Of a DNA stretch of 64,000 nt, positions 59,199 through 62,801 are shown piece after piece (position 1 is the stretch's first letter; the number at the start of each line of letters is the position of its first letter). The DNA lies in the NCBI GenBank assembly GCA_030535975.1, contig JAUNQW010000001.1:62001-126000 (forward strand). The letters are read 5' to 3'. Position numbers and translations under genes: made by a program. The stretch comes from Atopococcus tabaci. Its GTDB lineage: Bacteria; Bacillota; Bacilli; Lactobacillales; Carnobacteriaceae_A. The notes below the pieces were generated by a model. It searched no databases. It had not been told where the DNA came from and worked only from the letters and a program-made list of their open reading frames with translations.

Positions 59199-60560
59199 AT
59201 GGCTAAGGACAGGACAGAACGACATGCTTTTAGTGATTTTGTAACTGAGAAGACTTTTAAAAATCCGGCTCTATATCAAGCATGGAAGGACTATGAATCT
59301 TTTGTACCGAGGGCAGTGTTTTCAGATGCCGGTGCTCCAAGTATCTATTCCGACGGTATGACAGTTGACGAGGTCCATAAAAGATTTAAGTCGCAAGTTC
59401 CAAGTGAGCACTTTGCTTTTGAATCCCGCGAAGAATCTTTGAAATACACCTATCGCTCTGCAGAGAGGATGCCCGACTCTGAGAATCATTATGTGGCAAC
59501 CATTTATTTTCATTTCTTAGAACGGCGTCTCTTTTACTCTGAAATACGCATCCAGACCGACTCGGATTTAGAAAAGAATTTTATAAGTGAAAAGCAAAAA
59601 ACAGAGTGGATTAAAAACCGTGCAGACCTTGAAGAATTAGAGGCTGTTCAGCCTCAAACTTTCGGCCTGGCTCAAATGAAGATGCAGGGCGGGATGTCTT
59701 ATGAATTATTTGTTCCCTATGTGGATGATCAGGGGGTAGAACATGCGGAATTCTTTATGTTTCTCGACAATAAAATTGCTTTGGGGTACAGCTCGACCCT
59801 GGCTCGGGAATTTCAATCTGAGCGGAATAACTTATTGAGAAACTTGGTAGCTTTTGATCAGCACTTACGAAGAGCTCAGAAAGATACCCAGCTGGAAGAC
59901 AGCATCACCCATCTCACCCATCCATTTGATTCATTTATCACCCCCCAGACGATGGAAAATCCAGCCAGTCGCATGGCCTACCAATATTATAAAACGCTTT
60001 ATCACAACCATCCCCCAGCCGACTTCAACTTAAAGGAACTGGATGGCCGGCGGATAGAAGAGATTCAAAAATATTTCAGCGGTCCCAATGATCCTGTGCA
60101 TATGGAGGCAGGTGAGCGCGAAGACTATCTGTTTTATTTATTTGAATCAGAGGAAATCAACCCGTCGACAGAGAAGAAGAGACAGGCCGAACTCAAACTT
60201 TATTTCTATGACGGAGTCTTTACTTACGCGGATATTTTCGGACTGGATTCTTATTTCTCTGAGAATGACTTACTGTCTTTTAATGATATGCTCAAAGAAT
60301 TACCTAAAGGCACCCATCTGGAGAAATTTGAGGCATACGAACCTATAACGATGGGCTTTGCAGAGTTTAAATATGAAGATAAAAATCACAGGATTATTTT
60401 GACACCTCAAATAGAGGCTTCAAAAATGAAAATTATCAACTATGTCTTTATCGATGAAGTGATGGAGTATGCTTTTGCGACGGACTACACAGACATAAAA
60501 GATTCGATTAGAAATGCAATGACTCAAATTTTCATGAACTTAACTAAAAGTGAATTTTAA
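59199..60560 (+). CDS. Unrecognised protein with two tandem 230-residue modules
   Basis: 453 aa, no signal peptide or membrane helix, acidic. I do not recognise the family. It is an internal duplication at a constant offset of about 230 residues: DFVTEKTFKNPA (13-24) matches SFITPQTMENPA (245-256). ATIYFHFLERRLFYSEI (100-116) matches AELKLYFYDGVFTYADI (330-346). AVQPQTFGLAQMKM (149-162) matches AYEPITMGFAEFKY (379-392). The 'MTxDEVxxxF ... strand-rich' layout recalls SmpA/BLIP-like folds, a weak hint only. It lies 25 nt before the arsM gene and is probably in the same operon. Confidence 0.85.
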   Translation: MAKDRTERHAFSDFVTEKTFKNPALYQAWKDYESFVPRAVFSDAGAPSIYSDGMTVDEVHKRFKSQVPSEHFAFESREESLKYTYRSAERMPDSENHYVATIYFHFLERRLFYSEIRIQTDSDLEKNFISEKQKTEWIKNRADLEELEAVQPQTFGLAQMKMQGGMSYELFVPYVDDQGVEHAEFFMFLDNKIALGYSSTLAREFQSERNNLLRNLVAFDQHLRRAQKDTQLEDSITHLTHPFDSFITPQTMENPASRMAYQYYKTLYHNHPPADFNLKELDGRRIEEIQKYFSGPNDPVHMEAGEREDYLFYLFESEEINPSTEKKRQAELKLYFYDGVFTYADIFGLDSYFSENDLLSFNDMLKELPKGTHLEKFEAYEPITMGFAEFKYEDKNHRIILTPQIEASKMKIINYVFIDEVMEYAFATDYTDIKDSIRNAMTQIFMNLTKSEF

Positions 60561-60585: not shown

Positions 60586-61350
60586 ATGGATAAAAAACAG
60601 CAGGCAGTTAATGATTTATACGCAGGTGTGGCTCTAAGCGGTAAGCTGTATTCAGAGTTGACAGAAGAAGAAAACGCGAAGCAGATTGAAAAAATTTCCC
60701 GGTCATTTGGTTATGACCCCGAAGAGATTACTGAAGAAGCTAATATGGGCCTGGGCTGCGGAAATCCTTTGGAAAATGCCAATCCAGTCGAAGGAGAAGT
60801 CATCGTTGACTTAGGCTGCGGTAAAGGAATGGATACTTTTATTGCGAGTAAAAAAGTAGGATCAAGCGGCCGGGCCATCGGTGTTGACCGGCTGAGTGAA
60901 ATGATAGAAAGAGCAGAACAAATTTCTGATAAAAGAGGCTTTAAAAATACTGCTTTCATTCAATCTGACATTGATGATATCGATCTTCCAGATGAAATGG
61001 CAGACTGCATCATCAGCAATTGTGTCATCAATCTGGTGGCAGATAAATTAAAAGTCTACCAGGAAATCTTCCGCTTGCTAAAACCAGGCGGTCGGATATC
61101 GATTTCAGATATCGTGCTTTATAATCCGCTGCCCGAAGAAATAGCAGATGATCCCCGCCTGCATGCGACTTGAGTGGCTGGTGCAATTTCTGTGGAACAG
61201 ATATATGAAATTTTAGTTGCCAGCGGCTTTGAACAGATTGCAGTGATACAAGAACCGGTAACAGAAGCATATGCCGGCAAATGGGGACATGACCTGGATC
61301 TCAAACGTTATATCGAACGAGGTAAGATATTAGCTGTCAAGCCTCTTTAA
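60586..61350 (+). CDS. arsM: Arsenite methyltransferase (ArsM), probable selenoprotein with in-frame TGA
   Basis: 254 aa if the TGA at 61171-61173 is read as selenocysteine (residue 196); 195 aa if it stops. ArsM adds methyl groups from SAM to As(III). The family pattern is clear: GLGCGNP (conserved Cys58), IVDLGCGKGMD (SAM motif I), SNCVINL (Cys146), LLKPGGRISISDIV, then TGA followed by VAGAIS. Most members have Cys in that place (the arsenic ligand, Cys174 in the Cyanidioschyzon enzyme). After the TGA the frame continues 58 codons, in family style (YEILVASGFEQI...KILAVKPL), to TAA at 61348-61350. GGGAGGAATAAAG precedes the ATG. A nonsense mutation is the alternative; no other damage is seen. 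Confidence 0.75.
61171..61224 (+). promoter_or_regulatory. Candidate bacterial SECIS element at the arsM TGA
   Basis: After the UGA (61171-61173), 20 nt precede an apical GGA loop (61194-61196). The upper stem is AUUUCUGU (61186-61193) with ACAGAUAU (61197-61204), 7 pairs and one U-U mismatch. A lower stem pairs GCUGG (61177-61181) with CCAGC (61220-61224), with CAA / UUG above it. Known bacterial SECIS hairpins have a G-containing apical loop at about 16-37 nt after the UGA. The E. coli fdhF loop lies at about the same distance. The fold was drawn by hand. Confidence 0.6.
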
Positions 61351-61357
61351 CCTACTC

Positions 61358-61386
61358 AACCGAGCCTGAAAAGCGCTCGGTTTTTT
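61358..61386 (+). terminator. Terminator after full-length arsM
   Basis: ACCGAGC pairs with GCTCGGT over a 9-nt loop, then T6. It lies 8 nt after the distal TAA (61350), not after the TGA, which supports the gene ending at TAA. Confidence 0.88.
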
Positions 61387-61448: not shown

Positions 61449-62801
61449 ATGTCTATACGAACATATATATTAGAATACTATAATCGAATCACTCTACTAA
61501 TATTAGGTTTTATACTTATTTCCATCGGCCTTGTTTACACGACAGACGTCATTGAATTAACTGAAGGAATCTACAATATTTTTATCCACCATCACCGGAC
61601 GGAATCCAATTTATTAGGTGTGGCGGGTAATACAGGATCGCTCTGGGTAAACAGCGGCTTGATTATGATCAGCTTTTGGCTCACCTATGTTTTAGGCCGT
61701 TCAAAAATGAAAGGGATAGATATTGCAGCGGCGATTCAAATCTTTGGATTCAGCTTCTTTTCTTTATCCTTGATAGCGGTATGGCCTTCTATTTTTGGAG
61801 CGCAGTTAGAAGCTAAGGTCAATGGGAAATCTGCTGCAGATAACTTGGCAGTCGCTTGGTTTACCACTGCCTTATCACCTATCGTTTCAACGATCATCTT
61901 CCATTTTTCCGGTTTTAATCCCGGCTCTTTCTCAGCAGTGGCTGTGGCTTTTGGACTGGGATTTGTTTTGGGCTTTATATCCAGCATGTTAGCCGGCTAT
62001 ATGAAGGTTCTGCATGGCGGGCGCCTGCTCTTTAACATGGGGCTTACGACAGGGGTAGTGGCCTGGTTTTTTTATAATTTTATGAGGTATATCGGCTTAG
62101 ATATTGGACCGATAGATGGGATACCCACTCCTGAATATGATTGGCGTCCATATTTTACTTTCATGATGATTGCTTTTTATTTCATCCTCATGGGGGCGAT
62201 CTACGATAAAGGTTTAAGTAAATATTTCAACACCTTATTCTGGAAATCAACAGATGGAGGAGACTTTTGCGCAGAGTATAGTAAAGGAACGGCCTGGATT
62301 AATGTCGGTGTCGTTTCGATTGTGGCTTTGACCCTTGTTGCCATTGTCGTACCCAACGGTCAGCTGGAGGACGGCACTTTGGCCGGTGTATTTACAGCGG
62401 CAGGCTTTGGAGCTTTTGGAGTCACCTTACGCTCCTGGCTGCCCATGTATTTCACAGTTTACATCGCTTCCTTTTTTCTGGGCGGTATCGAAGGGCTCTT
62501 TGCCCAAACGTCTTTTTTATCCGGAGCCATTCAGAAATTGACTTCCATAGGCAATATTTCAGCTTCCCTGCATATTGCGGGTTCGAGTCCGGTGGTGAGA
62601 AGGGATGGAATCGTCCCGGCGGTTATTGTCGCTGTCCTGCATATGATGAATACCGCAAATGTAAGTGTCTTGACCGGCTGGATGCACAGCTATACGAACG
62701 GCTTCTCTCAAGGAATCGTGCTCGTCCTCTTTTATCCGGTCTGGTATTATTTCAGCCGGAGACATAAAGGTAATGATGTAGAGACTATTCAGTATAAATA
62801 A
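61449..62801 (+). CDS. DUF1576 family membrane protein
   Basis: 450 aa, about 11-12 hydrophobic helices. It resembles the DUF1576 family of Firmicutes integral membrane proteins; the function is unknown. A loop near 40-75 has NIFIHHHRTESNLLGVAGNTGS. A loop near the C-terminus has GNISASLHIAGSSPVVRRDG, both conserved-looking and possibly functional. Two internally similar halves are possible. GAGAGGAAGG precedes the ATG. A TATAAT at 61411-61416 may be its promoter. It is flanked by terminators, so is a single-gene unit. Confidence 0.75.
   Translation: MSIRTYILEYYNRITLLILGFILISIGLVYTTDVIELTEGIYNIFIHHHRTESNLLGVAGNTGSLWVNSGLIMISFWLTYVLGRSKMKGIDIAAAIQIFGFSFFSLSLIAVWPSIFGAQLEAKVNGKSAADNLAVAWFTTALSPIVSTIIFHFSGFNPGSFSAVAVAFGLGFVLGFISSMLAGYMKVLHGGRLLFNMGLTTGVVAWFFYNFMRYIGLDIGPIDGIPTPEYDWRPYFTFMMIAFYFILMGAIYDKGLSKYFNTLFWKSTDGGDFCAEYSKGTAWINVGVVSIVALTLVAIVVPNGQLEDGTLAGVFTAAGFGAFGVTLRSWLPMYFTVYIASFFLGGIEGLFAQTSFLSGAIQKLTSIGNISASLHIAGSSPVVRRDGIVPAVIVAVLHMMNTANVSVLTGWMHSYTNGFSQGIVLVLFYPVWYYFSRRHKGNDVETIQYK

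Follow-up and report, generated by a model that had tools for sequence, protein, structure and literature searches.

The window analysed here is a 64,000-nucleotide stretch of DNA from Atopococcus tabaci, which carries on its forward strand a reading frame for an arsenite methyltransferase, arsM (60586-61350). The frame starts at 60586, runs into an in-frame TGA at 61171-61173 and stays open beyond it to a TAA at 61348-61350; its readthrough translation is a protein of 254 amino acids, with a probable selenocysteine (Sec) at residue 196. A hairpin with a GGA loop lies behind the TGA (61186-61204), and the TAA is followed on the same strand by an intrinsic terminator with 8-bp arms and a T run (61358-61386; fold of -14.3 kcal/mol, z -4.1). 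The position of this strong terminator directly 3' of the TAA indicates that arsM ends there and not at the TGA. Neither of the neighbouring genes (59199-60560 and 61449-62801) matches an NCBIfam family, and no ars operon gene was recognised adjoining arsM in the window.

Among the NCBIfam profiles, the best match of the readthrough product is NF008823, arsenite methyltransferase, at 238.9 bits. This score does not reach the curated cut-off of 263 bits, which is a naming threshold rather than a mechanistic feature. Alignment to the CmArsM crystal structures (4kw7/4fr0) places C57, C145 and U196 of the product at residues 72, 174 and 224 of CmArsM, which are its As(III)-binding cysteines; the ArsM domain is present with all three arsenic-binding Cys/Sec positions, and the UGA stands at the equivalent of Cys224. 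The residue falls in a UxxG motif, here U196-V-A-G. Protein identity to the relatives is 38-44% downstream of the TGA versus 48-52% ahead of it, and third codon positions are the most changed in the downstream portion; together, this retained identity and the variability of third positions argue that the part past the TGA has been selected as protein.

The codon column at the UGA shows an exchange between Sec and Cys codons. Of 46 aligned homologues, window arsM included, 40 have a Cys codon (TGT or TGC) in this column, and the other six have TGA. In all, TGA at this codon was found in six genomes and three Paraclostridium plasmids, namely, besides the window's genome, four genomes of a sister family, one further genome (G552) and the plasmids of Paraclostridium bifermentans. 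Further genome searches for TGA-containing arsM homologues returned none beyond G552, a protein search of the genome contigs with the arsM product gave a single distant and uninformative locus, and no arsM relative was found in the viral contigs searched. All five other genomes with a TGA-containing arsM (the four of the sister family and G552) carry a tRNA-Sec.

The machinery for Sec insertion is likewise present in the window's genome. The tRNA-Sec scores 67 bits and has the anticodon UCA, selB encodes both Pfam SelB winged-helix families (SelB-wing_2 and wing_3), and selA, selB, selD and the tRNA-Sec are clustered on one contig (C49). In-frame TGA codons also occur in selD and in grdA, the gene for glycine/sarcosine/betaine reductase selenoprotein A. 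The locus concerned (L017, G000 contig C49:52000-68000) comprises the tRNA-Sec, the selenoprotein gene selD with its in-frame TGA, selB and selA, together with a glycosyltransferase-like gene, grdA with its in-frame TGA and a gene for the glycine/betaine reductase component C beta. From its gene content, this locus suggests selenium-dependent amino-acid reduction in the window lineage.

The hairpin behind the arsM TGA had been proposed in a preliminary description as a bacterial SECIS element, with seven of eight pairs in an upper stem, a GGA loop and a lower stem. The upper stem has the sequence claimed for it: the arms AUUUCUGU (61186-61193) and ACAGAUAU (61197-61204) form five contiguous Watson-Crick pairs and two more past a single U.U mismatch, and they enclose the apical loop GGA (61194-61196, forward strand). 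In the published model of bacterial SECIS elements, the stem has 4-16 bp and the loop 3-9 nt, with G in its first two positions, in most cases as G[G/U]; the distance from UGA to apical loop is 16-37 nt and the minimum free energy -7.5 kcal/mol or lower (PMC13188914). The arsM hairpin agrees with this model (Fig. 2A of PMC13188914) in its loop of 3 nt, its stem of at least 5 bp, the GG with which its loop begins and its spacing of 20 nt. It differs in energy, since the limit of -7.5 kcal/mol is reached only in longer folds: the GGA hairpin alone is weak, at -3.0 to -4.5 kcal/mol, and has -8.1 kcal/mol with the lower stem, while longer folds with another apex range from -11 to -18 kcal/mol. In a thermodynamic fold of 60 nt, base-pair probabilities for the GGA-loop fold are about 0.2 at the core and 0.05 at the outer pairs. 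A search of Rfam with the arsM hairpin matched no family.

It had also been held that the structure goes beyond what the amino-acid sequence demands. The number of pairs sets the arsM site apart from synonymous recodings; energy alone does not. When the codon positions of window genes are scanned, 0.3% of them have, 18-24 nt downstream, a G[G/U] loop on five or more Watson-Crick pairs, and such a hairpin arises in 2.5% of synonymous recodings of the arsM stretch; because the loop pattern is the published one (PMC13188914) while the spacing limits and loop sizes were chosen after seeing the data, these figures describe the hairpin rather than prove it. The energy of the best local hairpin compatible with the model is not unusual among synonymous recodings (P = 0.62).

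The upper stem was also compared between homologues (Sec versus Cys codons, and pairing among relatives). By the same criterion, with spacing and loop sizes chosen after the fact, a G[G/U]-loop hairpin with 4-6 Watson-Crick pairs lies 3' of the TGA in every TGA-containing arsM homologue examined, although in one of them (L024) only four contiguous pairs are left, and no such hairpin with at least four Watson-Crick pairs is found 3' of the Cys codon in any of the 40 Cys homologues (0/40). In four relatives, a GGA stands at the identical position, while the sequence of the stem differs; the upper stem of arsM and that of the relatives are distinguished by two compensatory changes, G22-C28 of arsM being U-A in the relatives and U19-A31 being A-U. 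In the comparison with these relatives, 82.9% of cells pair in the GGA fold, pairing and covariation both peak sharply at slide 0, and 19 of 500 shuffles attain the observed values. The compensatory changes represent few independent events, given how similar the four relatives are to each other. A second type of hairpin with the loop AGUU is present in G552 and P. bifermentans, and here the outermost pair changes from U-A to C-G, the third codon position being altered synonymously in both arms (GCT/GCC and GAA/GAG). The covariation check set out in the preliminary description comes out in favour of the upper stem: it is kept in the TGA homologues, with compensatory changes between two lineages and a third-position swap in the AGUU type, and, counted at four or more Watson-Crick pairs, it is absent where Cys is encoded. 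The proposed lower stem fares differently: its arms GCUGG (61177-61181) and CCAGC (61220-61224), both on the forward strand, are able to pair, but as a stem they lack conservation: 52% of cells are paired, in the relatives 8 of 20, and no pair has changed on both sides.

Two other selenoprotein genes of the same genome have hairpins that share their design with the one in arsM. In grdA, the hairpin is GAUUU-GGA-AAAUC, with a triloop identical to that of arsM located 23 nt after the UGA, and in selD it is CUGAUA-GUU-UAUCAG, with the loop 22 nt after the UGA and two compensatory pairs relative to its relatives. In the selD of another genome (L088, G014) and the grdA of a further one (L093, G133), no G[G/U] triloop hairpin of the standard form follows the TGA at the customary distance, and the SECIS elements of these two genes may have another shape.

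The conservation of the stem in the TGA homologues and the complete Sec machinery of the same genome support the interpretation of the arsM hairpin as a bacterial SECIS element, which is very probably correct. From the sequence evidence we consider arsM to be a selenoprotein gene, the UGA at 61171-61173 being decoded as Sec via SelB and the GGA hairpin at 61186-61204, with a probability of roughly 0.93. In the proposed mechanism, the tRNA-Sec with the anticodon UCA would be delivered to the UGA by SelB, whose C-terminal winged helices would bind the hairpin with its GGA loop. Sec would thereby stand where ArsM otherwise has its third arsenic-binding cysteine, and Sec196 would offer As(III) a selenolate ligand of greater nucleophilicity in this arsenite-methylating enzyme. 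We infer all three of these activities, namely the decoding of the UGA, the binding of SelB to the hairpin and the methylation of arsenite, from sequence comparisons.

Alternatively, arsM may be a selenoprotein gene in which the minimum-energy fold, with a GAACAGA loop on an AAUUUC/GAAAUU stem, acts as the SECIS in place of the GGA hairpin. No structure of the 60-nt stretch has a lower energy than this fold (-18.3 kcal/mol, z -2.3), and it too has a G first in its loop, 21 nt after the UGA. It is, however, poorly kept in the relatives, where 68% of cells pair and covariation is higher when the fold is slid by +2, whereas the GGA fold peaks at slide 0; the occurrence of the same GGA triloop in grdA also counts against it, and we regard it as improbable. 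Still less likely is a reading in which the TGA acts as a genuine stop codon or arose by nonsense mutation, the product of 195 aa then being a truncated enzyme or that of a pseudogene. TGA is a standard stop codon, and the MAG is one assembly, but independent genomes and plasmids share the TGA at this codon, the protein is conserved past the TGA with the terminator following the TAA, and the genome holds the full Sec machinery. Moreover, among 47 non-overlapping window ORFs (38 with TAA, 8 with TAG and 1 with TGA), the single TGA is the Sec codon of arsM and no other ORF ends in TGA. TGA is hardly used as a stop codon in the window ORFs, and this near absence (1/47) would also fit a genome-wide reassignment of UGA, for example to Trp, that makes a SECIS unnecessary, a reading we find scarcely credible given that no other plausible window gene is interrupted by an in-frame TGA (four other TGA-joined frames are antisense to longer ORFs), that the aligned residue in homologues is Cys and not Trp, and that tRNA-Sec and SelB are present.

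Selenoprotein forms of this enzyme have been described before. An arsenite methyltransferase (NF008823 / PRK11873, UxxG; WP_011987699.1) is included in a table of selenoproteins, ahead of the group 'predicted with high confidence' (PMC13188914). The window protein belongs to the same family and shares with it the UxxG motif and a Sec in place of the C-terminal arsenic-binding Cys, while it comes from another organism and scores just below the cut-off. The arsM of the P. bifermentans plasmids (CP124691.1, NZ_CP094934.1, NZ_CP079738.1), with TGA at the same codon, already carries the annotation of a single readthrough CDS under the name arsM; it differs from window arsM in its hairpin, which has the AGUU loop 17 nt after the UGA on a UCUUC-type stem, and in its location within an ars gene cluster. 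The families ArsM_AhpD_UU (NF041537) and ArsM_DUF2284_UU (NF041536) have the ArsM domain in common with window arsM, but contain a fused second Sec-containing domain that is absent from it. Since NF008823 is a listed selenoprotein family and the P. bifermentans gene is annotated as readthrough, window arsM is not of a new kind; with its hairpin, it is a well-supported new example of an enzyme type and a hairpin type that are already known.

Standard gene calling would truncate arsM at 195 residues, and the third arsenic ligand would be lost. Sec use in the order of the host may be less documented, as in a survey of 2006 the Lactobacillales had only an orphan SelD (PMC1794560), and the window case contributes further Sec/Cys pairs and SECIS sequences, in a lineage with little reported Sec use. 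The series of GGA, GGA and GUU triloops in one genome would make the specificity of SelB testable there. A lactic-acid-bacteria-like lineage of Bacilli could have gained a complete Sec system and retained it, along with a SelD that is itself a selenoprotein, the selenoprotein A of glycine reductase and a selenoenzyme for arsenic methylation, the Sec-arsM of the sister family standing beside sel genes as if co-inherited; we put this forward tentatively, as a possibility somewhat short of even. In three genomes of this sister family, arsM is found within about 1 kb of selD and in the opposite orientation. At these loci (L083, L084 and L085 in genomes G248, G147 and G698, respectively), the Sec-arsM is divergent from the selD beside it, selB is present as well in L084 and L085, and in L085 the tRNA-Sec lies about 140 bp past the end of arsM.
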